64,000 nucleotides of DNA from Levilactobacillus brevis. Its GTDB lineage: Bacteria > Bacillota > Bacilli > Lactobacillales > Lactobacillaceae. The notes under the pieces were generated by a model. That model did not search any database and had not been told where the DNA came from. It worked only from the letters and a program-made list of their open reading frames with translations. Shown here in pieces: positions 8,890 to 32,696 of this stretch. The stretch spans positions 744,001 through 808,000 of the forward strand of contig CP079699.1 of assembly GCA_021383565.1 (NCBI GenBank), in the 5' to 3' direction. The position numbers and the translations under genes were made by a program. Within the stretch, counting starts at the first letter, position 1. Every line of letters starts with the position of its first letter.

Positions 8890-9470
8890 CGGTCGTAGCT
8901 GAGGATTGAAAGCTAGAAAACGGCTAGAATCAGTCGTGTGACAAGGATAATAGCCATTATGATAGGGTAATCTCGTGCTGGTCGCCTTACCGTTCGCCAA
9001 ATTTGGTCTGGAACGCGGTGGGTAGGGACGGGACAAGCCAAAGCGCGGTCTTGTCCCTCGCTTTGAGCCGAAAGCCCGCGTCTCAAAGACGCCGGTTTCC
9101 AAGAGGAACACTTGGAAACCCCCACGGCTGAGACCAAATTTAGCTCACTCACGGCTACATGTGAGGTAGCCAATTATGCCGGTCGAACGTGGCCACGCCA
9201 GCGATGCCACCGCGTGTTTAGTGGTTTTCAGCCATCGTAACCGGAGACAGCCAGAGATGGAGGTAGCCGTGACAGCGGTGTTAGCTGGCGTCTTAGGTCA
9301 GCTTACAGCGCGGGACGTGTTTGGAGCCTGGCGAATTTTGCCAGGCTTCAAACCGAGCCGGAGGACCGCTTCTCAGGCCGCAGGCGGTCCCCACAGCACC
9401 GGAATCTCTGGCAGCCGCAGGTGGTGTCAATGACTCGTTTAATGGCGATAAGCTTTGTTAGCTGAACGCA
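8890..9470 (-). repeat. Dispersed repeat, copy A (candidate structured RNA)
   Basis: About 580 bp whose reverse complement aligns along nearly its whole length with 30078-30645 (copy B). A 5' portion is also shared with copy C (32588-32696). Anchors found in A and B include CCAGAGATTCCGG, GGGGACCGCCTGCGGCC, CACGTCCCGCGCTGTAAGCT, CTACCTCCATCTCTGGCTGT and GAGCTAAATTTGGTCTCAGC. No transposase or terminal inverted repeat was seen. Small frames in it (for example - strand 8913-9173) are probably by-products. Its 3' end lies against the fhs terminator, and it would be transcribed towards fhs. Confidence 0.85.
8999..9141 (-). ncRNA. Predicted multi-hairpin core of repeat copy A
   Basis: An 11-bp closing helix (AGACCAAATTT 9131-9141 with AAATTTGGTCT 8999-9009) encloses three hairpins. 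They are GGTTTCCAAG/CTTGGAAACC (9094-9103/9111-9120, 7-nt loop), GCGTCT/AGACGC (9078-9083/9087-9092) and GGGACAAG/CTTGTCCC (9030-9037/9050-9057). Copy B keeps all helices despite base changes. The family is not one I can name; RNA status is an inference from covariation. Confidence 0.5.
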
Positions 9471-9726
9471 AGTCCCTCTACTAACTACTAATGTTTTTTT
9501 CGGCCAATTTGTTGCAGTCGGGAGCCAATAAAAAATCATTTTCGTTTTCAGGGCGAATTGGTTCAGTCACTGATCAATGGACGGAATCCTTATTTCGTGG
9601 GGCTTTATCGCCGGTAGCCACGCCTAATCCGTCGGGGGATGACCGTTGTGCCCCGTGATAACTAAGCGGTTAGGTCGGGTTCTCGAACTTTTATTTCGTC
9701 CAAACCGTCAAACGCCCGGTTTTTCT
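9471..9726. other. Intergenic region upstream of lspA, no gene seen
   Basis: No coding frame or recognisable RNA element was found between repeat A and the lspA promoter. Confidence 0.5.
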
Positions 9727-9734
9727 GGTATAAT
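9727..9734 (+). promoter_or_regulatory. lspA promoter (extended -10)
   Basis: TGGTATAAT contains a perfect TATAAT at 9729-9734 with an extended TG. The -35 (CGTCAA at 17 bp) is weak. Confidence 0.6.
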
Positions 9735-9772
9735 TTTCAACAACGACTTATAGGAAAGGTGTTCCAGAAGTT

Positions 9773-10237
9773 ATGCTGATAGCTGATACCATCTTAATCA
9801 TTTGTCTGGTCGGGATTGACCAGTGGATCAAATACGCCGTGGTGGCCAACATCCCCCTCGGCGGTGAACAGAGCTTTATCCCCGGATTGGTGTCGCTGAC
9901 CCATCTGCGTAATAACGGGGCCGCCTGGAGCATCCTGCAGGGCCAAATGTGGTTCTTCGCCATCATCGCGGTGGTGGCCCTAGGCATCATGGGAGTCTTC
10001 TTCTGGCGGTACCGGAATCAAGGGGAACACTGGCCGGAAGAATTGGGCTTAGCGCTCATGATGGCCGGCACCATCGGGAACTTTATCGATCGTCTGACGC
10101 AAGGTTACGTGGTTGATATGTTCCAACTGGACTTTATTAATTTTCCGATTTTTAACTTTGCCGACAGTTGTTTAACGGTCGGTGTGATATTTATTGCGAT
10201 CGGGGTCTTTCTCGCCGATCGTCGGGAGGCACAGTAA
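9773..10237 (+). CDS. lspA: Lipoprotein signal peptidase (SPase II)
   Basis: 154 residues with four membrane helices. It removes signal peptides from prolipoproteins at the membrane after lipidation. The two catalytic aspartates are D106 in GTIGNFIDRL and D131 in FNFADSCL; the HLRNNGAAWSIL loop (44-55) is also conserved. The ATG at 9773 follows AGGAAAGGTG at slightly long spacing. The stop overlaps the next start (TAATG), so lspA and the pseudouridine synthase gene form one operon, the usual pairing in Firmicutes. Confidence 0.97.
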   Translation: MLIADTILIICLVGIDQWIKYAVVANIPLGGEQSFIPGLVSLTHLRNNGAAWSILQGQMWFFAIIAVVALGIMGVFFWRYRNQGEHWPEELGLALMMAGTIGNFIDRLTQGYVVDMFQLDFINFPIFNFADSCLTVGVIFIAIGVFLADRREAQ

Positions 10238-11160
10238 TGCAGATAGAAGATTTTACCGTTCAGAAGACGGCACGCTTAGACAAGCTGGTCGCCGAAACGG
10301 TCCCTACCATTTCGCGGTCACAGGCCAAGGGGGCCATCGAGGCCGGTCAGATTACGATCGACGGCCAAGTGGCCAAACCCAAGGATAAGCCGGCCGTGGG
10401 CGCTCAGATTCATATTGAGTTGCCCGACCCGCAGCCGATTGACCTGACGCCGGAGAACATTCCCTTAGACATCGTCTACGAGGACGATGACGTCATCGTG
10501 GTGAACAAGCCTCAGGGGATGGTCGTCCATCCCGCACCGGGCCATCCCAACCATACGCTGGTGAATGCCCTGTTGTACCACAGCCCGCTGTCGAGCATTA
10601 ACGGGACGTTGCGGCCCGGAATTGTTCACCGAATCGATAAGGACACCTCGGGCCTCCTGATGGTCGCCAAGAACGACCACGCCCACCAGAGCTTGTCGGC
10701 CCAGTTGCAGGCCAAGACCAACCTCCGCGAATACGTGGCGATCGTCCACGGCAATTTTAAGGAAGAAGAGGGCGTGATTCGCGCGCCACTTGGTCGGTCG
10801 CCCAAGGACCGCAAGAAGCAGGCGGTCGTGGCCGATGGTCGGCCGGCCGTCACCCATTTCCGGGTGTTGGAGCGCTATGGCACCTATACCCTGATTGCCT
10901 GCCGGTTAGAGACCGGGCGGACCCACCAGATTCGGGTGCACATGGCCTACATCAATCATCCGGTCGCCGGTGACCCCTTATACGGGCCCAAGAAGACGCT
11001 CAAGGGTGAGGGCCAGTTTTTACACGCCCGCGAGTTGGGCTTTGTTCAGCCCACGACGGGGAAGCAATTGGACTTCACGGCGCCGGTTCCCGCGCATTTT
11101 ATGGCGGTTGTGAAGAAACTACGCCGTGAGGCCGGATTACCAGTTGACAAAGCAATTTAG
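10237..11160 (+). CDS. RluD-type 23S rRNA pseudouridine synthase
   Basis: 307 residues: an N-terminal S4 RNA-binding domain (RLDKLVAETVPTISRSQAKGAIEAGQITIDG, about 13-43) and an RluA/RluD catalytic domain with HRIDKDTSGL at 131-140 (D134 is the nucleophile position). RTHQIRVHMAYINHPVAGDPLYG is the second signature. It isomerises uridines in large-subunit rRNA. The start is the ATG at 10237, overlapping the lspA stop by one base. This is the B. subtilis ylyB position next to lspA and ahead of pyrR. Confidence 0.95.
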   Translation: MQIEDFTVQKTARLDKLVAETVPTISRSQAKGAIEAGQITIDGQVAKPKDKPAVGAQIHIELPDPQPIDLTPENIPLDIVYEDDDVIVVNKPQGMVVHPAPGHPNHTLVNALLYHSPLSSINGTLRPGIVHRIDKDTSGLLMVAKNDHAHQSLSAQLQAKTNLREYVAIVHGNFKEEEGVIRAPLGRSPKDRKKQAVVADGRPAVTHFRVLERYGTYTLIACRLETGRTHQIRVHMAYINHPVAGDPLYGPKKTLKGEGQFLHARELGFVQPTTGKQLDFTAPVPAHFMAVVKKLRREAGLPVDKAI

Positions 11161-11208
11161 GTTTTTTATGCTAAACGTACGAGATAAGCGGGTTTGCCGG
11201 TAGCTAGA

Positions 11209-11251
11209 CGGGCGGGTTTCTTCACCAGATTTTGCCGAAGAAACCGGCCCG
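11209..11251 (+). promoter_or_regulatory. Hairpin in the pyrR leader (terminator or attenuator)
   Basis: CGGGCGGGTTTCTTC (11209-11223) pairs with GAAGAAACCGGCCCG (11237-11251), 14 of 15 pairs. It is followed only by a short TTT, so it is a weak terminator at best. It lies between rluD-type and pyrR, where pyr operons carry PyrR-controlled attenuators. I could not find the usual PyrR-binding loop consensus. Confidence 0.45.
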
Positions 11252-11274
11252 TTTCCTGCACATGAACGCCGTGA

Positions 11275-11829
<555 letters not shown>

Positions 11830-11853
11830 ACTTGATAAAGGGGCCGATTTAGC

Positions 11854-12930
11854 ATGGCAAAACGCTATTTGATTTTAGAAGACGGCTCGGCCTACGCCGG
11901 TGAGGGATTTGGTGCTGGCGCCACTACGAGCGGAGAAGTCATTTCCAACTTAAATCTTTTAGGCTATCAGGAAACGATTACCGATCAAATTTATCACAAC
12001 CAAATCATTATCTTTGCCCAACCGGCCATTGGCAATGTGGGGATTAACCACGATAGTTATGAATCCATTCTGCCAACGGCCAAGGGGATGGTGGTGCGCG
12101 ACGTCACCAACATCTCGACCAATCGTTTGTCGCGGCTGTCGCTGGACGAGTTTCTCCAGCAGCACAACATCCCCGGTATCAGTGGGATCGACACGCGGCA
12201 CTTGGTTCGCAAATTGCGCAAGATGGCGGGACCGGTCAAGGGGAGTATCGTGGATGTCGCAGACGCTCACGCCTTTGACCAGTTGAATGCCACGGTGCTG
12301 ACGAATCGCCAGGTCGATCAGGTCGCCACGCCCAAGCCGTATCCCAACCCGGATACCGGGAAGAACGTGGTGGTGATTGACTTTGGTCTGAAGCACGGGA
12401 TCTTACGGCAATTGTCGGAGCGCCGGTGTAACGTCACGGTCCTGCCGTGGACGGCTAGCGCCCAGGATGTCTTGAACCTCGACCCGGACGGCGTTTTATT
12501 GTCGACGGGACCGGGCTCGCCGCTCGATTTAGGCGAGGACGTTCTAGAGATGATTCGCACGGTTCAAGCGGAGATTCCGCTGTTTGCGATTGGCCTAGGA
12601 CACGAATTGTTTGCCCTGGCCAATGGGGCACAACTGGAGGCCTTGCCGGTGGAGTATCACGGCAGTAGCCATCCCATTCGCCGGATCATCACCAACGATA
12701 TCATTTACGCGACGCAGGGTCAGGGGTACGCGGTGATCGCTAAGTCGATTGACCGGGACCGCCTGATTACGACCTACGTGGACCTGATCAACGGGACCGT
12801 TCAGGGATTGCGCCACCGGGACTACCCGGCATTTTCCGTGCAGTTCTTTGCGGACGGTGCCCCAGGTCCTCACGAGAGTCGCGACCTATTCGATGAATTC
12901 ATGGAAGCTATGACAGCACGGGAGGGATAA
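11854..12930 (+). CDS. carA: CarA-like protein with degenerate glutaminase site
   Basis: 358 residues, normal length for the carbamoyl-phosphate synthase small subunit. The N-terminal domain (LILEDGSAYAGEGFG; GISGIDTRHLVRKLR) and the class I amidotransferase fold are recognisable. The catalytic positions are changed. Canonical GICLGHQ is AIGLGHE (245-251), so the nucleophilic Cys is Gly247. Canonical QYHPEASPGPH is QFFADGAPGPH (330-340), so catalytic His is Phe332 and Glu is Asp334. It should not hydrolyse glutamine. It keeps an open frame and is coupled to carB. Confidence 0.9.
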   Translation: MAKRYLILEDGSAYAGEGFGAGATTSGEVISNLNLLGYQETITDQIYHNQIIIFAQPAIGNVGINHDSYESILPTAKGMVVRDVTNISTNRLSRLSLDEFLQQHNIPGISGIDTRHLVRKLRKMAGPVKGSIVDVADAHAFDQLNATVLTNRQVDQVATPKPYPNPDTGKNVVVIDFGLKHGILRQLSERRCNVTVLPWTASAQDVLNLDPDGVLLSTGPGSPLDLGEDVLEMIRTVQAEIPLFAIGLGHELFALANGAQLEALPVEYHGSSHPIRRIITNDIIYATQGQGYAVIAKSIDRDRLITTYVDLINGTVQGLRHRDYPAFSVQFFADGAPGPHESRDLFDEFMEAMTAREG

Positions 12931-12933
12931 GGC

Positions 12934-15507
12934 TTGCAGAACTTGGATGACTTACAAAAAGTTTTGATCATTGGGAGTGGTCCGACGGAGATTGGCCACG
13001 AGACCGAGCTGGACAGCGCCACGGTACAGATCATCACGAACTTTAAAAAACACGGGGTGCGGACGCTCGTGATTGACAACAATCCCTTCTCCGTGGCCTT
13101 AGAAGAGATTCAACCCACCAATATGTACATTCAGGCGGTCACCACCGCCAACGTCCGACACATCATTGAGCGGGACCAGCCAGACGCCATTCTGCCAACA
13201 CTTGGTGGATTACTGGGCGTGCGGATTACCCAAGAGTTAATTGAAAGCGGCGACATTGGCCGGTTTGGCATTACTATTCTGGGGATGCCCGCGACCACGG
13301 TGCGCCAGATTAATAATCCAGCGGCCCTGAACAGTACACTTAAAGAGATTCACGAACCGGTGATTGAGGCCAAGGTCGTCGCGACGGAAGACGAAGCATT
13401 GGGGCTGGTCGAATCGATTGGTTTTCCGCTGATCGTCAAGCCGGTAGCCCCACGGCTGGATACGAACCGCACGATTTGTGAAAATGTGGACGACATGTTG
13501 GACGCGTTGGGACAGGGCTTCTCCCAGTCGCGATTTGACCAGTGCACGTTGGAACGTAGTGTCGTGGGGTATAAGGAAATCGAGATGATTGCGGTCCGCG
13601 ACGTGGCGGATACCCGGATTCTGATTGCCGGCCTCGAGAACGTCGATCCAATTGGGATTCATTCCGGGGATTCCATCGTCGTGACGCCCCCACAGACCCT
13701 CAACGATCGGGAGTATCAGGACCTACGGGATGCTACTTTTCGGGTGGCCACTGAGCTGGACGTAGTCGGGGTCATTCACATTCACTTTGCCCTTAATCCC
13801 GATAACCAACACTTCTACGTGACCAAGATTGCGCCGTACTTCACGCGTGGCGTGGCCCTGGCTGCCCGGACCACCGGGTATCCGCTGGCCTTCGTGGTCG
13901 GCGGTTTACTGCTGGGGCAGCGACTGGTCGACATCAAGTTGCCGAGTCGCTTTATCAAGCAGACGGCCATCATGGAGCCCAGTATTGACCACGTGAGCGT
14001 GCGGATTCCCATCTGGCCCTTCCAGGAGATTCCGGATGCCGACCAGCATTTGGACACGGTCATGAAGGCCGTGGGGTCGACCATCGGCATTGGCCGGTCG
14101 GTCGAAGAGGCCATGTTAAAGTCGGTCCGGAGCTCGCAGTTCTCGCCCCGAGACGTCCTACCCAGTGTCAGCAATCTCACCGATGGGGAAATGATTAGCC
14201 AGCTGATTCACCCACTGGCCAACCGCATTCTCGTCTTGATTGAAGCCCTGCGGCGGGGATACGATCCCGACGAACTGAGCGAATTGACCAAGATTGATAA
14301 TTTCTACTTCGTTAAGCTCCAGCATCTGTTGAAGATTGAAAAACGCATCAAGGAAAATCCCTTGGACGTGGAGACGTTGCGGGTTGCCCGGTACTACGGT
14401 TTCGGGGACGGCATGATTGCCCGCATCTGGCAGACGGATACGGCCGCCATTCGACAATTGTCGGCCGAGGCGGCCATTCAGCCGACCTACAAGATGATTG
14501 AACCCACGGCCGGGGAATTCGATGAACACGCCAGCGGTTATTACAGCACCTTCGAGTACGAGAACGAAAGCGAACCCCTGGGCGACCGGACGGCGTTAGT
14601 TCTGGGCCGCGGAGGCAACCAACTGGGGCCGAACACGGCGGCGGAGTATTTCACCACCGAGATGCTCAAGCAGTTAAAACGTGCCGGTTTCCACACCATC
14701 CTGATGAACACCAATCCGAACGCAATTGGCATAGCACCGGAGTTCACGGATAAACAGTATGTGGACCCCATTCAACTGGGTGACGTGCTCAACGTGATTA
14801 AGGTGGAGCACCCGGACATCGTGATCGTGCCAGGGAATCGTCATTATTTAACGCGGGAGCTAAGCAAGCTGAATCTGAACTTGCACGTCTTGCCACCGGA
14901 CCAAGAGATCGGCCAACCCCAACCCAAGCGTGCGACCATCGGCGTCAGCCTATTCGTGCACGAACAACATAAGATTGCGGTGGGGGTCATGGACATGATT
15001 GCCCCGGGGATGAATCAAGACATCGCCCAGGTCACGGCCTTTCGGATGCCCGCGGAACTTCCGAAGGCCGATCGGTTGCGCCTGGTCGAACAGGCCAAGC
15101 AGGCCGTTAGCGAGCATCAACTGACGGGGATGGTCCAGATTCTCTTTGCCCCGAAGACCACGACCGGTAAGCAGCTGGAAGTGGTCGGTGTACGGCCAAC
15201 CCGGTTGACCGAGATGGCCTTCTTAAGCAAGGTCACCGGCATCAACTGGGTGCGCATGCTGACGCGGCAACACATCGGGACCTTGGATGATGCCGAGCTA
15301 AGTGCGGTCAAGATTGACTTGAATAGCCAGCGGGTAGCATTGATGAACGCGGTCTTCCCGTTCCGCCAACTCCACGTCCTGAACCGACCGGGGACCACGG
15401 ATCAGGAAATGGGCGCCACGATTGCCTTTGGATCGAGTGAGGCGTTGACTCTCAGCAATCTGAGTGATACCGAACAGCTGGATAAGATTATCAACCGGAC
15501 GATTTAG
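12934..15507 (+). CDS. carB: CarB-like protein, both ATP-grasp sites degenerate, MGS domain absent
   Basis: 857 residues against about 1,060 in normal large subunits. Family relationship is clear (MEPSIDHVSVRIPIWPF; YYSTFEYENESEP; FLSKVTG). In the first ATP-grasp the Gly-rich loop TMGGSGGG is replaced by VAPRLDTNR (171-179), and the metal motif E-M-N-P-R by K-I-A-P-Y (298-302). In the second half about 100 residues of ATP-grasp are missing and E-V-N-P-R reads G-V-R-P-T (752-756). The C-terminal allosteric domain is absent. It starts at TTG (12934), 3 bp after the carA stop. Confidence 0.9.
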   Translation: MQNLDDLQKVLIIGSGPTEIGHETELDSATVQIITNFKKHGVRTLVIDNNPFSVALEEIQPTNMYIQAVTTANVRHIIERDQPDAILPTLGGLLGVRITQELIESGDIGRFGITILGMPATTVRQINNPAALNSTLKEIHEPVIEAKVVATEDEALGLVESIGFPLIVKPVAPRLDTNRTICENVDDMLDALGQGFSQSRFDQCTLERSVVGYKEIEMIAVRDVADTRILIAGLENVDPIGIHSGDSIVVTPPQTLNDREYQDLRDATFRVATELDVVGVIHIHFALNPDNQHFYVTKIAPYFTRGVALAARTTGYPLAFVVGGLLLGQRLVDIKLPSRFIKQTAIMEPSIDHVSVRIPIWPFQEIPDADQHLDTVMKAVGSTIGIGRSVEEAMLKSVRSSQFSPRDVLPSVSNLTDGEMISQLIHPLANRILVLIEALRRGYDPDELSELTKIDNFYFVKLQHLLKIEKRIKENPLDVETLRVARYYGFGDGMIARIWQTDTAAIRQLSAEAAIQPTYKMIEPTAGEFDEHASGYYSTFEYENESEPLGDRTALVLGRGGNQLGPNTAAEYFTTEMLKQLKRAGFHTILMNTNPNAIGIAPEFTDKQYVDPIQLGDVLNVIKVEHPDIVIVPGNRHYLTRELSKLNLNLHVLPPDQEIGQPQPKRATIGVSLFVHEQHKIAVGVMDMIAPGMNQDIAQVTAFRMPAELPKADRLRLVEQAKQAVSEHQLTGMVQILFAPKTTTGKQLEVVGVRPTRLTEMAFLSKVTGINWVRMLTRQHIGTLDDAELSAVKIDLNSQRVALMNAVFPFRQLHVLNRPGTTDQEMGATIAFGSSEALTLSNLSDTEQLDKIINRTI

Positions 15508-15542
15508 TCGGTTGGCGGCTTAATTTAAAATTGTATCTAACA

Positions 15543-15582
15543 AAAAGCATCTCCTCAATGTGAAATGAGGGGATGCTTTTTA
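15543..15582. terminator. Bidirectional terminator between carB and rqcH
   Basis: AAAAGCATC-CCTCA / TGAGG-GATGCTTTTT, with A and T runs on both sides, serving the convergent genes. Confidence 0.88.
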
Positions 15583-15613
15583 GTTTAGCCATTAGTTGTA
15601 ACTAGCAATTAAG

Positions 15614-17323
15614 CTAGTTATCGGCCATTTTTTCGACCAGCGCGCTTTCCGGCGTCACGTAAACCGTGCGTTGGCCAGTGAAAATAACGTAGCCAGGCTT
15701 GGCGCCGTTGGGCTTGTGCAGCCGTTTAACGGGCAGGTAGTCCACGGGCACGTTGCTGGACTCACGGCCCTTGGAGAAGTAGGCGGCCAGGTTGGCGGCC
15801 TCCAGAATCGTGGCCTCGCTGGGATGGTCGGCGTGAATGATCACGTGTGATCCCGGCATGTCCTTGACGTGGAGCCAAATATCGGTGCGCTTGGCGGTGT
15901 GGAGACTCAACTGGTCATTTTGCAGGTTGTTCTTCCCCACGGAAATCTTGGTGCCATCGCTAGCGGTGAACCGATCGGGCTTGCTGACCTTTTGCCGACG
16001 TTGCTTCTTATTCTTTTTCTGATGGTCGTGATCACGGAGGTAACCGCCTTGTTGGAGTTCGAGTCGAATGTCGACCAGGTCCTTAGGCGCAGCCAGTTCG
16101 ATCTGGGCCATGATGTTGGTGAAGTAATCGACGTCGGCCTGCGTGATCTTCAACTGCTCGTTCACGTAGGTGACGGCGTTCTTGGCCTTTTGGTACCACT
16201 TGAAGTACTTCTGTGCGTTTTGATTCGGTGAAAGCTGGTTACTGAGCTGGATCTTAAGTGGTTTATTCTCGTCGTAGAAGTTCGGCAGAGACACCGACGT
16301 TTGCCCGCGTTCCACCTGATTCAGGTAGGTCGTCAAGATTTCACCCTTGATACGGTACTCGTCGGCGTTCTCCGTCTCGGCGAGGGTCCGCTGGAGCTTC
16401 TTGAGCTTGTTGCGGTTCTTCTTCAGTTCATTACGCACGACGCGAATCAGGACGCTTCCTTGCTGCTGAACACGGTCGCGTTCGGCCTTGTCCTGGTAGT
16501 AGGTGTCGAGCAGTTCGCTAAGCGTGGCTGCGGCCTGCTGCTGGCCATCGGTCGGGTAAGGAAAGGCGGTAAAGCTGGTCTTGCCCTTAGGAGAGATGGT
16601 CAGCGTGGGTTGGGGATCATCGAAGCCAGCGAAAAATTCCGTGAAGTGTTTTGGCGCATCGCCGGGTTCGTGAAGGGCACTGGCCAGGGCCGCCGCGGTG
16701 TCCTTGCCGAGACCCTGGTACTGGTGCTGAAGCGTCTGGGCCAGCACTTCACGGTTAGGGAAGTCGCGTAACGTCTGCGTGAGGTCCGCCTGGGGTCCGG
16801 CAAAGGGATCGGCGAGGTCCTGCTTCGGTGGATTGATGTACTGGGCACCCGGGAGTAAGAGCCGATACCGGTTCTGATCGGAACCGACGTGCTTGATGGC
16901 GTCTAGAATTTTCTGACTGGCGCTGTCCACTAGAATGACGTTACTGTGGCGTGCCATGATTTCAATAATCAAGAGGAGCTCTTGTTGGTCCCCCAGTTCG
17001 TTGCGGGAGGTAAAGTGGAGGTGAACGACCCGGTCGTTAGCGACCTGGGTGATTCCCTTGAGAATGGCGCCTTGGAGGTATTTCCGCAGAATCATGGTAA
17101 AGTTGGTGGGAACGGGCGGATTGACGTAAGGAATCTGCGTCACTTGAATCCGCGCGTAGGTCGGGTTGGCCGATAGGAGAATTGGATAATTATGGCTGTT
17201 GGCCCGAATCGTCAGGACGACTTCATTGTCGTAGGGCTGGTTAATCTTGCTAACCCGGCCAGTCGTTAGATGACGACTGAGTTCCTGAACCATTGCATGG
17301 GTAAAGGATCCGTCAAATGACAT
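15614..17323 (-). CDS. rqcH: Rqc2/NEMF homolog RqcH (fibronectin-binding protein A family)
   Basis: 569 residues with the NFACT-N domain (MSFDGSFTHAMVQELSRHLTTGRVSKINQPYDNEVVL), a central coiled-coil (around KAERDRVQQQGSVLIRVVRNELKKNRNKLKKLQ) and the NFACT-R domain (TASDGTKISVGKNNLQNDQLSLHTAKRTDIWLHVKDMPGSHVII). RqcH recruits Ala-tRNA to stalled 50S subunits and adds alanine tails. Older annotations call it fibronectin-binding protein. Length is normal and it is monocistronic behind the bidirectional terminator. Confidence 0.93.
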   Translation of the reverse strand: MSFDGSFTHAMVQELSRHLTTGRVSKINQPYDNEVVLTIRANSHNYPILLSANPTYARIQVTQIPYVNPPVPTNFTMILRKYLQGAILKGITQVANDRVVHLHFTSRNELGDQQELLLIIEIMARHSNVILVDSASQKILDAIKHVGSDQNRYRLLLPGAQYINPPKQDLADPFAGPQADLTQTLRDFPNREVLAQTLQHQYQGLGKDTAAALASALHEPGDAPKHFTEFFAGFDDPQPTLTISPKGKTSFTAFPYPTDGQQQAAATLSELLDTYYQDKAERDRVQQQGSVLIRVVRNELKKNRNKLKKLQRTLAETENADEYRIKGEILTTYLNQVERGQTSVSLPNFYDENKPLKIQLSNQLSPNQNAQKYFKWYQKAKNAVTYVNEQLKITQADVDYFTNIMAQIELAAPKDLVDIRLELQQGGYLRDHDHQKKNKKQRRQKVSKPDRFTASDGTKISVGKNNLQNDQLSLHTAKRTDIWLHVKDMPGSHVIIHADHPSEATILEAANLAAYFSKGRESSNVPVDYLPVKRLHKPNGAKPGYVIFTGQRTVYVTPESALVEKMADN

Positions 17324-17567
17324 AAAAACAACACCTTTCTAACACATTATTTTTTATAAGAAGACGCGATCATGTTCAGTGCTAGCGTGGGGACCCGAAC
17401 ACCTCATGGTTGGGGATCCGGCAACACGCAGCTGATTTCACCGTTAAAAACGACACAACTTAAAGTATACCGGCCCAGTGGCGGAAGTGCAAAGAAGTTT
17501 CCTTGGAATCGGAGGAATTCGGGCGTAAAACTTGTCATCAAATTGACTTGTGATTAGCAACCAAATC

Positions 17568-17582: not shown

Positions 17583-17600
17583 CAAAAGGAGTGAGGGCAA

Positions 17601-21656: not shown

Positions 21657-21710
21657 CGCGTGCATCTCCAATCGGGTTATGGTAAGCTAGTTGCTGTAAT
21701 TAAAATTTAC

Positions 21711-21821
21711 GGAGTAGGAAATAAAGCGTCAAGTGCCAGTGGAACGCAATGTGAACGCCGGACGAAGGGCAATTGGCCCGCGATTTTATTTCCGCATTGG
21801 CCGCAGCGATGTGGCAACTCC
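21711..21821 (+). ncRNA. THF (folate) riboswitch
   Basis: The segment follows the THF riboswitch pattern. P1 is GGAGT at 21711 with ACTCC ending at 21821. GCGTCAAGTG follows a short helix, then CGAAGGGC and GCGATTTTATTTCCGCATTGG as the conserved 3' core. It lies directly before folT, with the folT ribosome site TTAGGAG only 2 bp beyond P1, so ligand binding probably masks translation initiation. This is the class's usual gene association. Confidence 0.85.
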
Positions 21822-24743: not shown

Positions 24744-24749
24744 CGCAAA

Positions 24750-24793
24750 TATGCCTAACTCAACCTCACTGTTGAATTAGGCATATTTTTGTA
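24750..24793 (+). terminator. Terminator after the truncated gene
   Basis: ATATGCCTAA-TCAA / TTGA-TTAGGCATAT followed by TTTTTG. The A-rich left side may also serve the - strand tautomerase gene. Confidence 0.85.
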
Positions 24794-24809
24794 CAAACCA
24801 TGCTTCTAT

Positions 24810-25211: not shown

Positions 25212-25282
25212 CTGACAATTCCTCCTGTCTAACTTAGTTGCTTACGGGGTTAGTATATCGAGAATCTCACGTAGCGCCTATT

Positions 25283-25305
25283 ATCAGATTGTGATATGGT
25301 AATCA
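25283..25305. promoter_or_regulatory. Overlapping dyads between tautomerase and LysR genes
   Basis: ATCAGATTGTGAT (25283-25295) and TGATATGGTAATCA (25292-25305) overlap in the divergent promoter region. They fit the spacing of LysR-type boxes. Confidence 0.4.
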
Positions 25306-25330
25306 TAAAAAGTGATAGGTGGCTATGTCC

Positions 25331-26074
25331 ATGCAACTACAAGACTTAGAGATCTACGTGAACCTCTACCAACAACGCTCAATCAACGGCGTCGCACGAC
25401 TGATGGGTTTTGCCCAATCAAACATCACCGCGAGGCTCAAAGCTATCGAGAAAGAATTTGGTGTCGCGTTGTTTACACGCAGTTATCAAGGACTCACACC
25501 GACGAATAGCGGTGCGCTGTTCTATGATTATGCCCAGTCAGTCTTGAATGCGACTGACGCGGTTAGAACGCGCATGATTGCAACCAAGGTACAGAAGCAG
25601 CACATCATCATGTCCGAGCTACTCTTTCCGCTGTTGACAGCCCAACAGGAGCGTTATTCGCTGACCGATAATACCTTCGAGCTTCTAAGCTCCACAGACA
25701 TGCTTGAAATCTCGGATACGAGGGCGAACCTAGTTGTCACCTATGCCAACTTTAAAAATCCGGCGTATCAGGAAATTGCCCGGAACTACTTGAACGCAGC
25801 CTTCCTGATCGACGCAAACAATGACAGCCGAACGCTGCCACTGCTGGTAAATAGTGACCATCATTGTCCATTCCGAATGAGAACGCTGCGGTACGCTCAC
25901 CACGATCTGGCTAGGGTCGAAGAAATCAATTCTTGGGACAGTATCATTAGCCTGGTAAAAAACGGGAAAGGTGTTGCCCTTTTACCTGAATATCTGATTG
26001 AAAGCGAAGGACTGAAACACGCTGACCACCAGCGGCGATTCCGAGTTCCCTATGCAACCTATCGACTGATATAA
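25331..26074 (+). CDS. LysR family transcriptional regulator
   Basis: 247 residues. The N-terminal HTH reads MQLQDLEIYVNLYQQRSINGVARLMGFAQSNITARLKAIEKEFGVALFTRSYQGLTPTNSG, typical LysR. The effector domain is shorter than usual (family about 290-300) and ends soon after GVALLPEYLIE. AGGTGG lies 8 bp before the ATG at 25331; ATG 25325 and GTG 25319 are in frame but too close to it. It is probably the regulator of the divergent tautomerase gene. Confidence 0.82.
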   Translation: MQLQDLEIYVNLYQQRSINGVARLMGFAQSNITARLKAIEKEFGVALFTRSYQGLTPTNSGALFYDYAQSVLNATDAVRTRMIATKVQKQHIIMSELLFPLLTAQQERYSLTDNTFELLSSTDMLEISDTRANLVVTYANFKNPAYQEIARNYLNAAFLIDANNDSRTLPLLVNSDHHCPFRMRTLRYAHHDLARVEEINSWDSIISLVKNGKGVALLPEYLIESEGLKHADHQRRFRVPYATYRLI

Positions 26075-26385
26075 GCTAGATTTACCTAATCGTCTTACGA
26101 CGTACTTGCCTCATCGGGGTGGCCCGCCGGGTTCGTCATCAGCGGCAGAATAGTAATCACGGAAATATAGCGTACAGTATCAAATGGCAGACACAACGTC
26201 CATTGCGATAGTGCGTTGCTTTTAACCGGATTTATCTACCGGCACAGTGACAGTCATGCTACCTTGTGCCACCGAAATTAGCTGAAATGATGGATTAACC
26301 GGGAATCCACATTATATTTCCGGTTGCTACAAGCCGCGTCGTATCAAGGATCTACCCGGTGTTCGGACATGATTTTTTTACTTTA
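26075..26385. other. Intergenic region with no supported gene
   Basis: The + strand is empty. On the - strand a 46-codon open stretch ends near 26095 (including LPFDTVRYISVITILPLMTNPAGHPDEAS). It has no start and could be a gene remnant or chance. Confidence 0.4.
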
Positions 26386-26574
26386 CTACCCCCCTGTTAG
26401 ATACTGGGGGTATTTGGCGGCCGGCTGACGCCGGCCGCCGTTTGCTCGCGCTTGCGCCTTTCGTGCTGCACGGCGCGCGCGGCAAACGCGGGGACACAAA
26501 TAGCGATTGCCGTGGCTGTCGGTAATCGCTTGGTTAGTTTTCTTGGATGATTTGCTGGCACAGAGCTGGCACAC
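26386..26574 (-). CDS. Small Cys-rich, Arg-rich protein (possible zinc ribbon)
   Basis: 62 residues: MCQLCASKSSKKTNQAITDSHGNRYLCPRVCRARRAARKAQARANGG and a Pro/Arg tail. CxxC (2-5) and CxxxC (27-31) could bind zinc, followed by a very basic helix suited to RNA or DNA. The start would be GTG at 26574 with a poorly placed GGAG, so the true start is uncertain. A perfect 10-bp GC-only hairpin (26416-26439) lies in its 3' part. No family is recognised; it may not be expressed. Confidence 0.4.
   Translation of the reverse strand: MCQLCASKSSKKTNQAITDSHGNRYLCPRVCRARRAARKAQARANGGRRQPAAKYPQYLTGG
26416..26439. repeat. Perfect GC-only inverted repeat
   Basis: GGCGGCCGGC - TGAC - GCCGGCCGCC: ten consecutive G/C pairs with a 4-nt loop and no T tract. 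It is unlike its surroundings. Confidence 0.7.
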
Positions 26575-26664
26575 TCCATAGCAAATTCAGTGTTTTTAGG
26601 TCTTCTCTGTTGGTACAATAATACCGTTAAATCGCAATTCTTGTGTCAATCACAGGATAGGGTT

Positions 26665-26680
26665 GTTTTCACGTGAAACA
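26665..26680. other. parS-like palindrome
   Basis: GTTTTCACGTGAAACA matches the ParB-binding consensus TGTTTCACGTGAAACA at 14 of 16 positions and contains the perfect palindrome TTTCACGTGAAA. It lies just beyond the thioesterase stop. No parAB genes are in the window. Confidence 0.3.
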
Positions 26681-26681
26681 A

Positions 26682-27206
26682 TTACATCGGCCACGGTGAG
26701 GAGACCGTAACGTGGGCATTTAACCCGCGTTGCTCCACCCGGCGCTCCTTGCGTTGGGCCGTTCGTTTGGCATAGCCGGCACAGATGTAGCGCTGCTCGG
26801 CGGTGACGGGCACCATATCAGGCAATGGGTCGCTGGCCGTGGGGTCTTCGATCACGTAGGTAATGAAGCAGGTGTAGCCGACAAAGCGCTCGCCGGTCGT
26901 GAGGTTCTCGCCAATGATTTTGACGAAGACCTCCAGTGACCGCGTCCCCGTACCGGTCACGTAGGCTTCTAAGAACATGGAGTCGTCCAAGTGAAACGGC
27001 CGCAGAAAGCTGACGTGGTCGAAGGAAGCCGTCACCACGGTCTTGTGGGTCAAACGAACGGCCACCACGTAGGCACTGTCGTCGACCAGCGAGAGAATCT
27101 TACCACCAAAGACCGAGTCATGTTCGTTTAAGTCTGGCTGAAACACCCGGTGGCTGGTCACGATAAGCGTGGCATTGCAGGAAACGGGCGCTAGTTGATT
27201 TGTCAA
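26682..27206 (-). CDS. Acyl-CoA thioesterase (hotdog fold)
   Basis: 174 residues. DLNEHDSVFGGKILSLVDDSAYVVAVRLTHKTVVTASFDHVSFLRPFHLDD is the hotdog core of the YkhA/YciA-like thioesterases that cleave acyl-CoA in the cytosol. I choose TTG at 27206 because GAGGTGA lies 5 bp before it and family members begin in this way. Upstream ATGs (27224, 27239, 27305) lack ribosome sites. The basic C-terminal tail is longer than usual. Confidence 0.82.
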   Translation of the reverse strand: MTNQLAPVSCNATLIVTSHRVFQPDLNEHDSVFGGKILSLVDDSAYVVAVRLTHKTVVTASFDHVSFLRPFHLDDSMFLEAYVTGTGTRSLEVFVKIIGENLTTGERFVGYTCFITYVIEDPTASDPLPDMVPVTAEQRYICAGYAKRTAQRKERRVEQRGLNAHVTVSSPWPM

Positions 27207-27381
27207 AAAGGTCACCTCATTCATTTTTTCTGATCCCATTCTAACAGAGTCCCTGAAAAAACGGCGACATAAATAGTAAGTTACGGGTTTATTAATTTTT
27301 CGCAATATCTGAGTAAAATGCTGCGGTCAACGCGACGAGCTTTGCTATACTGTGGGTAAATTAGCAAGTAGGGGTGTTAGC

Positions 27382-28474
27382 ATGATCTATCATGGCGAAC
27401 CGTTGGACTTGATGCCAACGCTAGATTTGGCGGAAACGTATCCGTTACTCGAGTGTACACTGAGTTTGACGCACCCCATTGACGTGGCTCGGTTGAAGAC
27501 CGCGATTGCCACGACACAAACGGTGGTCCCACAGGTGTTGGGTCGCTACAATTTACGTTGGAATCGATTTTAAGTCGAGGCCAACGCTTTGGACCAGGTC
27601 ATCGAAGAGTTTACAGCCGCCCACGACCCAGGTCGCGCGGCGTTAGACGTCTTGGCCGGTTCCCAACTCAAGATTCAAGTTCTCCACCATCCCGACTACG
27701 ACGCCTTGCGCTTGTCGATGAGTCGGCTATTGACGGATGGTGAGGGGTTCAAACACTACCTGTACCTGCTCGCCGCGGCCTATGATGGCCAGGACTTGGC
27801 GAACTTTACCAATGAGCGGAGCGTGCGCAAAATCTTGGCCCACCTCCGCCATCCCCATCGGGCGTTGCCCACGTTGAATGGCAATTCCGATGAGACCTTC
27901 CCGCGTTTACAAGGGGATGTCCACCACCACCGCGGCGAGGCCACGATTCCGCGGGTCGTCAGTCGCCGCTTACGCCAGCGGACCCAAGCGGAAAACGTGA
28001 CCATGAACGCCGTGCTGTTGTCGGCCTACGCGTTGGCGCTGTTTGCCTTGACCGGTGAAAGTCGATTAATCATCCCGTATCAAGTGGATCTGCGGTTGCA
28101 CGGGCCGGTCGTAGCCACCAACGTGGTCCAGGTCGCCAATCTGACTAGCGAGATGCCGATTCCCATCACTGTCCAGGCCGGTGACCAACTGGCCGACGTG
28201 GTCCAGCGGACGCAAGCGACCATTAGTCAGTTGCGCGATGAACTGGCCTATTTGCCACCACTAGTCGAGCTCAACCGAATGAGTCGCGCGTTGCCACCGC
28301 AGTTGGTACGGCGCCTACCGGACGATGCCGCATTTCCAGCTGACCGTTAGCGTGTACCACGACGCGTGGACGCTGGCCTTTCGCATGTTGGGGTCAGAAC
28401 CCGACTACCAGCTGGGCATTAAGATTTTGAAAAACGTCGTCGCCCAGCTGACGCAGTGGGGCCGCGGCCGTTAA
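27382..28474 (+). pseudogene. Condensation-domain-like protein, broken
   Basis: One gene in pieces. Codons 1-63 (MIYHGEPLDLMPTLDLAETYPLLECTLSL) end at TAA (27571-27573). The same frame resumes VEANALDQVIEEFTAAHDPG to about 28310. A frameshift near 28310-28325 then gives HFQLTVSVYHDAWTLAFRMLGSEPDYQLGIKILKNVV and a stop at 28474. The xLLTDGEGF block stands where condensation and alcohol-acetyltransferase-like proteins have HHxxxDGxG, here without the His pair. Probably non-functional. Confidence 0.65.
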
Positions 28475-28551
28475 CGCCACGGCTTAGTGTTGGGTGATGC
28501 TGGTAACGCGTCACCTAACACCACGCAATGTTGTAAAGACAGACAAACAAA

Positions 28552-29984
28552 GGCTCTTTGTCAACGGCTGTTGATGAATAGCTTTATGAGAAATCAATTC
28601 ACTTACGAATTGGTTTCTTTTTTTCGACTTTGATTGTAAATTCAATTCGAATCCTTGTGTAAAAATGCGACCAGTTCCGATAACCATATGCGGTCCGTTT
28701 TATTTGCTTGATCTTGCGATTAACGCCCTCTACTGGGCCATTCGAGTGTTTACTTGCCATCATATTTTTGATAAGTGTTAAATGCTTGCGGTAAGTTTTA
28801 ATGGTTTCTTCAAGTTGAGGACTGACTGTTCCCGGATTGTTTAAAAACTTGATGAATCGGCCATAGTCTCGTTGACGTAAGGCATCTACAAGACCATGGG
28901 CAATAAAATAAGTGTGTTGGAAAACTGGATCAATTTCTAATCCCTTAGTAACGAATCGTTCCTGAGTGAACCAATCTTTTAAATGCGCAAACCATTGTGG
29001 TTTGCGTTTTTCTAAGTCATGGTATGACTTTAAAAACAATCGCCAGTTAGGCTTTAAAATGCGATATTCACTCGTATCCTTAGCGAAGCGATGCATTAAT
29101 TGGACCCGAGTTTGATTAAGTGCATTTAGGCCCATCTAAACTAAATGAAAGTTATCGGCGACAATTTTAGCATTGGGAAACAGTTCATGAATGACGGATT
29201 GATATTGAGCATTAAAGTCCATAACGACTTCTTTAACGCGGTTACGTTCTTGTTTTGAGTAGTTTCCAGTGAAATGTTTCTTAATACTTTTATTGAGGCG
29301 ATCTGGTAAGACAGAAACCAAGCGATGTGATTGACCATCAACTGCGATGAAACTCATTTGGACCCCAGTTGACCGAAATTCATCAAAACAAAGGACGGTT
29401 GGTAAGGTTGTTAAAGCAGTCTTAGTTTGGATTGCCAGTTTTTCAATAATTCGATTGACCGCCACAGGTGAAATATTCAATTCCTCTGCGATATCAGTGA
29501 TACTGCGGTCTTTATTTAAGCGAAGAATAATCATCCTATTTGTATCTTCGGAAATTTGACAGTGCGGTTTAACCAGTGTCGTTTGAGCGCTAAAAGTATG
29601 CATACAGGTTTTACAACGGTAACGCTGTTTAGCCAGTCTTAGGATGACTGGACGTTCCTTAACGGGAGGAATATGAACGTTGATTAGATTAGTACCAAAA
29701 CGGACTACTGGCGCTTGACCACAAAGTGGGCAAGTACCCAATGGATAGGTCAATTTAGCATAGATAAGCTGCTTTTCGGGATCTGAGTTATCAATATGAG
29801 TACACGTGATATTTGGGTCTTGGATTTGTAGGATATTTTCGATAGAATGTTCTTGGGACATAATTCTCACTTGCCTTTACTTTTACTTTGGTCGGTACTG
29901 GTGGTGCATTTGAGGATGTGTCCTTTTATTTTACAAAAAAATTGGCGTCGATGGAATGCCATCAACACCAAATATTGTAGAGCC
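28552..29984 (-). mobile_element. ISL3 family element, copy 2 (inactive)
   Basis: Terminal inverted repeats: GGCTCTTTGTCAACGGCTGT at the left, and GGCTCTACAATATTTGGTGT as the reverse complement of the right end. It is related to but clearly distinct from copy 1. Flanking octamers differ (CAAACAAA left, ATAAAAAT right). Confidence 0.85.
28599..29870 (-). pseudogene. ISL3 transposase with one in-frame TAG
   Basis: The N-terminal 244 codons (MRIMSQEHSIENILQIQDPNI, zinc finger CPLCGQ...CKTC, DEFRSTGVQMSFIAVD, VMDFNAQYQSVIHELFPNAKIVADNFHLV) end at TAG. The next codon continues in the same frame, MGLNALNQTRVQLMHRF, to the normal end KVEKKKPIRK. Copy 1 has HLVQM at this spot, so CAG to TAG is likely. 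Without readthrough the protein is truncated after most of its catalytic core. Confidence 0.85.
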
Positions 29985-29986
29985 AT

Positions 29987-30023
29987 AAAAATCACGCTAT
30001 CTCTCGGGAGGGCGTGATTTTTT
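29987..30023 (+). terminator. Strong terminator right of IS copy 2, probably that of gtrA
   Basis: ATCACGC (29991-29997) pairs with GCGTGAT (30012-30018), followed by TTTTTT. It begins within the ATAAAAAT word shared with the left edge of the inserted segment. Confidence 0.85.
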
Positions 30024-30045
30024 GTGCGCTTATTTTGATAACTAA

Positions 30046-30645
30046 AGGTTGAAAGGTCGCGAACGCGCTCTAGACCCCAGCTGGTAAGGGTTGTCACCAT
30101 TAAACTAGACATCAATACCACCTACGGCTACCAGAGATTCCGGCGCTGTGGGGACCGCCTGCGGCCTGAGAAGCGGTCCTCCGGCTCGGTTTGAAGCCTG
30201 ACAAGAATCGCAGTCTCCAAACACGTCCCGCGCTGTAAGCTAACTCAGAACGTCAGCTAACACCGCTGTCACGGCTACCTCCATCTCTGGCTGTCTCCGG
30301 TTACGATGGTTGAAAACCACTAAACGCGCGGGACATCGCTGGTGTGACCGTGTTTGGCCAGTTTAATTGGGTACACCTCAGGAAGCCGTGAGTGAGCTAA
30401 ATTTGGTCTCAGCCGTGGGATTTTCCAAGTGTCCTACTTGGAAAATGGCGTCTTTGAGACGCGGGCTGACGGCTCAAAGCGAGGAAAAAGACCGTTCTTT
30501 GGCTTTTCCCGTCCTGCCCACCGCGATCCAGACCAAATTTGGCGAACGGTAAGGCGGCCAGCACGCGACTAGCATATTATAATGGGTGGTATCCTTGTCA
30601 CACTAAGGATTTTAGCTGTTTTTTAACTTGCAACCTTTAGTTGAT
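30046..30645 (+). repeat. Dispersed repeat, copy B (candidate structured RNA)
   Basis: Full-length partner of copy A (8890-9470), here on the + strand. Its first about 100 bp also match copy C in reverse, including CCCCAGCTGGTAAG (C has the same word). Divergence from A is spread over the whole length. The + strand frame 30367-30552 shares residues with the A frame (VSELNLVSAVG) but differs mainly where base pairs co-vary. No protein motif, transposase or terminal repeat was seen. Confidence 0.85.
30399..30540 (+). ncRNA. Predicted multi-hairpin core of repeat copy B
   Basis: The closing helix AAATTTGGTCT (30399-30409) / AGACCAAATTT (30530-30540) encloses three hairpins. They are ATTTTCCAAG/CTTGGAAAAT (30420-30429/30437-30446), GCGTCT/AGACGC (30448-30453/30457-30462) and GGAAAAAG/CTTTTCCC (30483-30490/30503-30510, one A-C mismatch). 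Relative to copy A three base pairs changed on both sides and one changed on one side only. Confidence 0.5.
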
Positions 30646-30766
30646 AATTCAGGTGGGAAATGCTTTCGTGATTAATCCGATTTTTCGGTAGTTTTTAGCC
30701 AAATCCTGCAACAAAATCGCCGTAAATTACATTAGTAATAAGTAGGGCGGTTGGTTACAGCGAAGC
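30646..30766. other. Short gap between repeat B and the VanZ-like gene
   Basis: AT-rich, no gene or clear terminator seen. Confidence 0.4.
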
Positions 30767-31282
30767 TCAAGCCACGGCGCGCTGCTGGCGTTGTTGCCGA
30801 TGGTGACCGCGAAGACGATAAAAGACGGCTACGGCGGCACCACCGATGAGGATTCCCAGTGCGTTAGCCAGCACATCGTTGATATCACTGCTACGGTTAA
30901 TCAGCCAATGTTGCGAAAGGATGTACTGCATGGTTTCAATACTACTGCCGGCGAAGAGGCCGAACAGGCCAACCCCCAACAGGGGAAGTTTGGGCGCTAG
31001 CCATTTTAAAAGTAGACCCAATGGCAGAGTTAGTAGAATATTTTCTGCGAAGCCGAGATTAAAGAGGTCGAGTTGCGTGAGGTTCACGCGGCCAAAACCG
31101 GCAGGCATGACGTAGATGCTGATACCAGAAATTGAAATCGGTGTAAAGAGAATTGCGCCTAATCCGGTTAGATAGGCTAGAGTGAGCAGGGCGAACCACC
31201 GGTGTTTACGCATGGTGGTGACAATCAACAGGCCACTTAAGCAGGCCATAAGGAAGATAATTAATAGGGGTTCCCAGCGCAT
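30767..31282 (-). CDS. VanZ-like family membrane protein
   Basis: 171 residues with five hydrophobic segments. The order AYLTGLGAILFTPI ... VNLTQLDLFNLGFAENILLTLPLGLLLKWLAPK ... SSIETMQYILSQHWLINRSSDINDVLANALGILIGG is the VanZ pattern, with the conserved E-x-x-Q and D-I-N-D-V-x-x-N elements. VanZ itself confers low-level teicoplanin resistance; most homologs have no known role. GGAGGTGATTCG precedes the ATG. It stands alone. Confidence 0.88.
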   Translation of the reverse strand: MRWEPLLIIFLMACLSGLLIVTTMRKHRWFALLTLAYLTGLGAILFTPISISGISIYVMPAGFGRVNLTQLDLFNLGFAENILLTLPLGLLLKWLAPKLPLLGVGLFGLFAGSSIETMQYILSQHWLINRSSDINDVLANALGILIGGAAVAVFYRLRGHHRQQRQQRAVA

Positions 31283-31657
31283 CGAATCACCTCCGTGAGA
31301 TGCGAAGTACTTAAACGGTCGTTCAACATGCTTCTAGACTAACGCATAATTGGGCAACTAGGGAGATTCTGGCCTGGGTTTTAAGGTTTCTTTGGGGCTT
31401 TAGCAAATTCATAAGGTCTTCGCCCAAGAAAGGTCACATTTTCAACGCGTTGCCGAGATTAAAGGGCGACAAGCTATCACTGACGTGTTTGACCAGTCTA
31501 CCAGGAGGGAAAGCATAGCGATTTCGCGACAAAGCCTGTCGTTGAGCATTTTAGAAACATCGTATCGCCGTATAAATAAATTTGTAAGACGGCCGCTTTG
31601 GTGAACGTGATTGAATCTGCTAAAGTTAAAGACAGAGATTAAACGAGGGGGAATTCG
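31283..31657. other. Intergenic region, no gene supported
   Basis: 375 bp between divergent genes. The - strand frame 31442-31663 has no ribosome site or family resemblance. A dyad CGATTTCGCGACAAAGCCTGTCG lies near 31518. Promoters for both neighbours must lie here. Confidence 0.45.
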
Positions 31658-32572
31658 ATGCAACGATGGTTAACGTGGCCGGTATTCTATGAACTAACGG
31701 AGATTTACACGGCGCCCTTAAATATCATGTGGTTCGTGTTGGGCGTTGCAATCGCCCAGTTTCATTTGGGCGTGGTGAATTGGGGCAATGTTGGATTGTG
31801 TCTCGTCACGGTCTTTATCTTCGATCTGGCCGTCAATGTCTCAGACAACTATTATGATTACCGTCATGCGCATGATCGGATAGATTACGCGCAGAAGACC
31901 AATCCAGTGGGACGTCTACAGTTGCCGGTGGCCGGTGTTGGCTACCTCGCCATTAGTCTGTACACCGTAGCGCTTTTGCCGGGAATCTGGTTGGTCTGGC
32001 GAACCGGCTGGTTGGTTCTTCTACTGGGCGCATTGGGGTACGCCATTGGCATCTTCTACACGGCGGGTCCTCGGCCGATTAATGCCACGCCATTCTGTGA
32101 AACGGTGGTGGCACTGTCGATTGCCTTTCTGATTCAGTTGACCTGCGTGGTGGTCTCAACGTACGGTCAACGCCCATTGACTTGGCAGACGGTGGGGATT
32201 ACCTTCTTGTTGTGTTTGCCGCTCACGCTGATCTTCTTTACGCTCCAGTTGGCTAATAACACGGCGGACCGGGAAGAAGATATTCGCAACCGACGCTATA
32301 CGTTGGCTTATTACTTGGGCCAGGCCGGCGCCGTTAAATTAATTCAAGCCTTACTGATTATTGGCAGTCTATGGCCCCTGGTCAATGTGGTCTTACGGAT
32401 TGCGCCCTGGAGCACCGGTTACGTGGCCCTCCTGTTGCCAGCAATGTGGTGGGGTATGCGGCCCTTCTTTAAGGTGCAGGACAAGCAGAAAACTTTTATG
32501 ACCACGGTCAAGAGTGCGTCGCTCTTCTTCATCGCATACCCGGTGCTTTTTGTAGCGGGTGCTTGGTTTTAG
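31658..32572 (+). CDS. UbiA family prenyltransferase (MenA-like)
   Basis: 304 residues, about eight membrane helices. The first Asp-rich motif appears as NVSDNYYDYRHAHD and the second as NNTADREEDIRNRRYTLAYYLG, both needed for Mg-diphosphate binding. The closest overall look is 1,4-dihydroxy-2-naphthoate polyprenyltransferase, the membrane step of menaquinone synthesis. No other men gene is near, so UbiA family is the safe call. GAGGGGGAATTCG precedes the ATG. Confidence 0.82.
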   Translation: MQRWLTWPVFYELTEIYTAPLNIMWFVLGVAIAQFHLGVVNWGNVGLCLVTVFIFDLAVNVSDNYYDYRHAHDRIDYAQKTNPVGRLQLPVAGVGYLAISLYTVALLPGIWLVWRTGWLVLLLGALGYAIGIFYTAGPRPINATPFCETVVALSIAFLIQLTCVVVSTYGQRPLTWQTVGITFLLCLPLTLIFFTLQLANNTADREEDIRNRRYTLAYYLGQAGAVKLIQALLIIGSLWPLVNVVLRIAPWSTGYVALLLPAMWWGMRPFFKVQDKQKTFMTTVKSASLFFIAYPVLFVAGAWF

Positions 32573-32587
32573 ACCGGTGAAGTGGCC

Positions 32588-32696
32588 AGACAGCGTCGGA
32601 ATCTCTGGCAGCCGCTGGTGTGATTTTGATAACTCATTTAATGGCGATAAGTCTTACCAGCTGGGGCTGGAGCGTGTTTGCAAGCTCTCAACTTTT
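32588..32696 (-). repeat. Dispersed repeat, copy C (5' fragment)
   Basis: About 110 bp, reversed relative to copy B. It shares GGAATCTCTGGCAGCCGC and TTTAATGGCGATAAG with copy A, and CTTACCAGCTGGGG with copy B. The homology stops where the first GC-rich hairpin would begin. It lies between the UbiA gene and the WxL-cluster terminator. Confidence 0.75.

Follow-up and report, generated by a model that had tools for sequence, protein, structure and literature searches.

Miniature inverted-repeat transposable elements (MITEs) of bacteria are usually regarded as relics, and their interior is held to be unimportant. In contrast, the interior of the element described here is its best conserved part, an RNA fold that recurs in ten genera, is present in tens of copies in one genome and is partly kept in situ. 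The element lies in a 64,000-nt stretch of the Levilactobacillus brevis genome (contig CP079699.1, positions 744,001 to 808,000, hereafter the window) and was compared with three groups of described systems. The bacterial MITEs QMITE1 and QMITE2 with their small RNAs (sRNAs), BOX, RUP and SPRITE resemble it in being short, free of reading frames, intergenic and bounded by terminal inverted repeats (TIRs); QMITE2 also has direct repeats of 7-9 bp, and some MITEs are reported to yield sRNAs (accessible part of PMC10969869). The present element differs from these in that two homologous RNA units, strongly covarying across genera, make up its interior while its arms and linker drift, and its parent insertion sequence (IS) was not found.

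REPINs are doublets of repetitive extragenic palindromic (REP) sequences, linked to RAYT tyrosine transposases, in which the doublet forms a hairpin. They share with the present element two inverted structured units with a spacer and an extragenic, dispersed, non-autonomous distribution (PMC3116915, in the portion available). With self-folding, multi-branched units of about 165 nt that lie inside TIRs flanked by 7-8-bp target-site duplications (TSDs), the element falls outside the definition of a REPIN; RAYT genes were not searched for. GOLLD, ROOL and OLE are likewise large, ornate structured non-coding RNAs, and the name of GOLLD also refers to Lactobacillales (PMC12286853, excerpted text). 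The element is set apart from them by the lack of a match at the Rfam gathering score, by its many dispersed copies, by the unit length and by its residence within a transposable element. Within the available parts of these sources, MITE-derived sRNAs (PMC10969869) and the inverted doublets of REPINs (PMC3116915) would be the closest precedents. The open-licence literature gave no recognisable description of the element, and a search with its TIR letters returned unrelated work alone. A covariation-backed, head-to-head RNA pair found across genera as the conserved interior of a MITE was not seen in the literature searched or in Rfam.

Anatomy and mobility of the element

The full-length copy in the window occupies 30042-30640 (plus strand, 599 bp). 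Its TIRs lie at 30042-30057 (plus) and 30625-30640 (minus) and are flanked by the duplication TTGATAA at 30035-30041 and 30641-30647. The interior consists of unit A (30125-30296, predicted sense strand minus; cmsearch with model R2, E 2.2e-33), a poorly conserved linker (30297-30389) and unit B (30390-30549, predicted sense strand plus; cmsearch with model R1, E 8.1e-46). R1 is a covariance model of unit B built from 39 sequences. The other long copy (8899-9470, minus strand; L011) is 86% identical, and contains unit B at 8990-9150 (predicted sense strand minus; R1, E 3.6e-45) and unit A at 9245-9417 (predicted sense strand plus; R2, E 3.6e-36). Its right end is intact, with a TIR at 8899-8916 (minus) directly after a terminator-like hairpin (8853-8884, by eye) downstream of a gene named FTHFS by Pfam, and its left end near 9470 is eroded, with no TIR found. 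A truncated copy at 32590-32699 (minus strand) retains the left arm together with some 25-30 bases from the start of unit A.

A first-pass annotation of the window had reported this repeat as a single structured RNA of roughly 580 nt in three copies lacking terminal repeats, or else as a mobile RNA-like element. The family and its structure proved real, the stretches 8890-9470 and 30078-30645 are the diverged copies it took them for, and the mobile alternative came close to the present finding. The terminal repeats described above contradict the lack of such repeats that it reported, and the copy number given below contradicts its count of three. The third piece (32588-32696) is indeed a fragment, but it belongs to the minus strand with the content just stated.

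The genome that contains the window (G000, Levilactobacillus, 2.68 Mb) was searched with a 586-base copy as query, and 40 of 166 first-look candidates were scored. The query gave 48 matches at 40 places, whole or partial, and searches with the left end alone or the unit-B part alone (40 candidates scored in each) added further places that match only these pieces. The element measures about 600 bp, with TIRs of about 16 bp and target duplications of 7-8 bp. The TIR form CTRAAGGTTGAAAGYT was found at 67 sites in this genome with at most one mismatch, while a reversed-pattern control gave 0; the ends of the element carry the letters CTRAAGGTTGMAAG. Recognisable ends on both sides were present in 20 of the 40 copies. 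In 11 of these 20 testable copies the TIRs were bordered by direct repeats that match exactly over 6 bp or more, ten of them 7 or 8 bp long, compared with a shuffle rate of about 3% in which the shuffles still held true pairs.

The same hallmarks were found outside this genome. In six relatives, both ends were recognised in 17 of 60 copies and an exact duplication of at least 6 bp in 10 of these 17, against 0 of 4790 mismatched border pairs. From the better R1 matches in other genera, 24 loci of seven genera were taken, which hold 38 matches; both ends were found in three of the 24, and two of them (L448 and L468) have an exact 8-bp duplication with the same TIR. Moreover, window site 1 is empty in three relatives (G007, G009 and G015), in which the same flanking genes lie 161-254 bp apart; in G011 the site measures 486 bp and has no element match. 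No coding capacity was detected in the 67 aligned cores, where the longest stop-free run was 80.8 codons compared with 88.4 after shuffling, and core indels did not come in threes (276/1180). With terminal inverted repeats, target-site duplications and neither a transposase nor a coding frame, the repeat is best explained as a MITE-type element of Lactobacillaceae, transposable but non-autonomous and as such of a known kind (TIR plus TSD).

The TIR list of G000 (at most one mismatch) contains one facing pair 0.8-3 kb apart (812023/814145, 2.1 kb). It was rejected as an autonomous partner, being an element copy split by an rve-type IS with two transposase frames. At L256 (351-2043) of the same genome, about 1.7 kb of inserted DNA, which encodes HTH_Tnp_1 and rve domains in two transposase frames, breaks a copy of the element. 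Around lone TIR sites, 18 of 20 stretches match the element beyond the TIR, and L253 and L258 match at the TIR only.

Structure and strand polarity of the two units

For the structural comparison, 67 of 100 copies passed the core anchors and were aligned, giving complete cores from seven species, and the other 33 were left out; unit A spans columns 0-178 and unit B columns 272-432. Between species either unit was 83% identical, compared with 57% for the linker. The two structured units, each about 165 nt, lie on opposite strands, which replaces the single one-strand RNA proposed earlier. By a G-test with average product correction (APC), the strongest eight of 94,395 column pairs all fell within the RNAalifold consensus structure, as did 19 of the top 80; the others presumably reflect shared ancestry. 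The closed domain that the first-pass annotation recognised in both long copies, in which an 11-bp helix encloses three hairpins, is real and corresponds to unit B (30390-30549, plus; 8990-9150, minus), and the stem it had compared between them, that of the third hairpin, holds the two strongest covarying column pairs. The GC-rich hairpins it placed upstream are structured as well, but they are in fact the homologous unit A, which folds better on the opposite strand.

The fold was also found in the other-genera loci, whose alignment was fitted to the model, so that the counts lean towards the model. Changes on both sides occurred at 47 of 51 base pairs, and 95.5% of cells at paired positions could pair, compared with 62.9% after shuffling. 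The covariation score reached 0.767 against 0.182 in shuffled alignments and at most 0.108 in slid structures, and long-range helices covaried too (helix 1). A sequence-only model recovered 22 of the 24 loci, and the column-pair test of the 67 cores used an alignment that had not been fitted in this way. Together with the strand polarity described below, these results strongly support selection on structure, in line with the first-pass annotation.

Units A and B are, judging by their cross-matches, homologous. On the strand opposite to unit B, the unit-B model R1 matched unit A of both long copies in the window (9244-9418, E 7.6e-7; 30124-30297, E 3.6e-6), as well as unit A of five further loci (E 8.8e-8 to 2e-5). 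The match to unit A of an eighth locus (L350) was marginal (E 0.025), and all leftovers beyond the unit-B and these unit-A matches had E 1.8 or more. The order of the units was nearly constant. Neighbouring units separated by less than 700 nt formed 31 pairs, of which 30 were minus-plus, pointing away from each other, and one was minus-minus; in other genera all 14 two-unit loci were minus-plus and 10 loci had a single unit (L445-L448 are counted in both sets). One locus of G001 (L383) has a third unit, the order being minus, minus, plus, which suggests tandem growth of the array. The element at another (L468, in G229 of another genus) is 271 bp long and bounded by TIR-like ends and the 8-bp duplication TTAAAAAT; one unit was detected in it, and it is possibly an ancestral or reduced single-unit form.

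The strand on which each unit folds was evaluated by folding energy and by the relative frequency of G-U and A-C at base pairs. The minus strand gave the better fold of unit A in all 67 cores, and the plus strand that of unit B in 59 of the 67. In plus-strand letters, tree events from Watson-Crick (WC) pairs to G-U and to A-C numbered 30 and 73 in unit A, and 39 and 23 in unit B (Fisher p 3.8e-5). By species, A-C exceeded G-U in 7 of 7 for unit A, and G-U exceeded A-C in 5 of 7 for unit B. These per-unit counts replace per-species figures for the pooled units, which say little. The other-genera loci had 74 G-U and 21 A-C, in an alignment biased to G-U. As a control, RNase P RNA had 59 G-U and 8 A-C in its sense strand (30 of 40 sequences found); judging by the match strands, the alignment itself is antisense. 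Folding energy and the G-U/A-C asymmetry indicate that each unit has its own sense strand, as far as can be read from the sequences.

Retention at genomic sites and rival explanations

Cores were compared at individual sites. In Levilactobacillus tujiorum (G011, seven copies), the cores were 80.5% alike within the genome, whereas the adjoining 60-nt arms were at the shuffled level. The close species G001 and G008, with 38 loci each, yielded 15 orthologous pairs. In 10 of the 15 a single alignment ran through the element, and the same 10 had unit A 90-95% identical; pooled, they gave 92.2% for unit A, 86.1% for the left 60 nt (partly gene) and 77.4% for the right 60 nt (linker side). Among pairs at least 85% identical, paired sites changed at 0.041 per site and unpaired sites at 0.151. 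Single changes at the pairs of unit A comprised 26 A-C and 7 G-U in plus-strand letters, corresponding to G-U on the minus strand, and the same substitutions were less skewed in unpaired columns. These results support selection on the RNA fold at individual sites, with losses. Gene conversion as the source of the core likeness was rejected: identity to the query unit is about 70-77% for the other full-length copies of G001, compared with 90-95% for 10 of the 15 orthologs. Partial copies of G001 reach up to 85%.

The main rival is an RNA role in the movement of the element itself. The transposase would then use the units as guide, scaffold or cis-acting RNA, with no benefit to the host and with selection among copies for mobility. 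The conservation of the units and the recurrence of the TIRs across genera while arms and linker drift fit this view, and so do the good TIRs and intact duplications kept by the copies of some species. Mobility by itself, however, does not predict the upkeep of sessile copies, and both the L. tujiorum cores, 80.5% alike beside neighbouring arms at chance level, and the retention of unit A at 10 of 15 G001-G008 sites with slower change at paired sites argue against it. We regard this rival as rather unlikely.

A structure at the DNA level is less probable still, and we give it little credence. It would involve a cruciform or single-stranded hairpins, or stems kept by hairpin-templated correction in replication. 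Over the whole core, pooled G-U (97) and A-C (122) were equally rare among 6793 cells, which seemed strand-neutral and was first read as DNA-level structure. That reading was reversed once the counts were split by unit, because the two units have opposite polarities that balance out to symmetry when pooled; pooled covariation can hide such polarity. Furthermore, long-range helices such as helix 1 covary, and templated correction would not preserve sequence identity among copies. A neutral MITE that folds by descent from an inverted duplication and looks conserved because of recent spread is highly improbable and already contradicted. The usual marks of a MITE are present, namely TIRs, TSDs, internal deletions and a large number of truncated copies. 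This view does not account for the compensation at 47 of 51 base pairs in other genera, for the 83% of the units against 57% of the linker or for the paired/unpaired contrast at orthologous sites.

Distribution, genomic setting and possible role

A DNA search of 40 genomes gave matches in 18, namely in G000 and in 17 of the other 23 genomes of its genus, and in 0 of 16 from other families. A 21-base core motif was found in at least 120 stretches of GTDB 220 (one genome per species), and among the 80 matches listed all belonged to Levilactobacillus or 'Lactobacillus sp. HBUAS51381'. A covariance-model search of the family with R1 matched 47 of 201 genomes; these fall in 10 of 40 genera, among them that of the window, and some genera have weak matches alone (E near 1e-4). 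In the order, 12 of 295 genomes matched, all of the same family, which from the genus name we take to be Lactobacillaceae. Both searches used strict filters with 10-14 candidates scored per genome, so that weak copies can be missed. These results indicated that the element is old and widespread in the family.

No named RNA family was recognised; the first-pass annotation had not matched the repeat to one either. With the gathering score as cut-off, the sole match of Rfam 15 in the window was a tetrahydrofolate (THF) riboswitch, and none fell on the repeat. Permissive scans of 27 stretches gave a few weak overlaps with the units (for example L465, E 0.1, 23.4 bits against 44) and none at the gathering score. 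GOLLD and ROOL, whose exclusion that annotation had called for, are, like HEARO, among the Rfam 15 models (4227 in number), all of which these scans covered. The units are therefore an RNA family without an Rfam match. In addition, the full query had no match in plasmid and phage collections, and a core 19-mer had none in viral contigs.

The gene context of the copies was called with a simple frame caller, using the nearest genes on each side. For 18 of the 40 G000 copies, both genes pointed towards the element. For the 59 sites kept from 80 named loci, convergence was found in 29, compared with 40 of 274 neighbouring gene pairs at the same loci. The right-hand gene was on the minus strand in 31 of the 40 G000 copies. 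An orientation bias relative to co-directional genes (13 vs 5 in G000, 13 vs 11 elsewhere) was not firm and was dropped.

The preserved shape of the units across several genera means that they very probably do something functional. The reading that we favour, with moderate confidence, is that of a MITE whose sole cargo is a head-to-head pair of paralogous RNAs, with the folded unit acting at mRNA 3' ends. A transposase acting in trans would move the element, and the units would work as RNA. Transcription from either flanking gene would then yield an RNA carrying one correctly folded unit, and with one unit per strand the orientation of insertion would not matter. At mRNA 3' ends the simplest role of the folded unit would be to stabilise or insulate converging genes at their ends, and this would account for the tolerance and retention of the element there. 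REP repeats have been proposed to act in mRNA stabilisation and termination (PMC3733652, in the part accessible). A bolder proposal is that of a family-wide, protein-less element with a divergent pair of paralogous structured RNAs, one per direction of transcription; host genomes would have adopted dozens of its copies to serve converging genes as 3'-end elements in either orientation. This is tentative, and we consider it possible rather than probable. The element offers a testable case of a mobile element bringing a structured RNA to many gene ends at once.

Several observations weigh against the 3'-end reading. At the other 5 of the 15 orthologous G001-G008 loci, unit A was 38-75% identical, that is, lost, replaced or partly missing. 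All 15 pooled gave 82.4% for unit A, 84.1% for the left 60 nt and 68.2% for the right 60 nt, so that unit A is conserved more than the right side and not more than the left. At sites shared by distant species, nine of 18 rows had the same and nine the opposite orientation (the rows are not independent, and three self-matching rows were dropped), and long core comparisons there were no more alike than random pairs. Four of 20 core comparisons did beat all random pairs, as local matches of 174-181 nt set against full-length ones. The mixed orientation and random-level likeness imply a high turnover over longer times. Unit B lacked a G-U excess over A-C in G000 (7 vs 9) and G017 (6 vs 7); its folding energy favoured the plus strand in 17 of 18 and 12 of 13 cores, respectively. 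A search that covered G000, with part of the lone-TIR interiors translated, found no transposase with the element's ends. Many copies lie within tens of bases behind a terminator-like hairpin (by eye, uncounted), so read-through may be weak. Finally, the promoter-like scores of the linker (0.21 and 0.18) barely exceeded the shuffled ones (0.14 and 0.11). The linker is 32-56 nt in 9 of the 14 other-genera two-unit loci, all nine of one genus; a linker this short, together with the weak promoter score in Levilactobacillus, speaks against a pair of divergent promoters lying between the units.

In the right arm of 31 G000 copies, the inward promoter-like score was 0.42 compared with 0.10 after shuffling, in copies that share ancestry. 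A palindrome, ATTATAAT (window 30570-30583), and a GTGACA motif recur by eye in this arm in copies of G000 and G017, and could be a promoter or a transposase site.

About 60 bp from the full-length copy, the window also contains a degraded ISL3-family element (about 28552-29981) whose transposase is split into two frames on the minus strand (28599-29135 and 29136-29870). This broken ISL3-type element was rejected as the parent, its ends starting with GGCTCT (by eye) and those of the MITE with CTAAAGG. The THF riboswitch (Rfam RF01831) lies at 21708-21805 on the plus strand and scored 77.5 bits.

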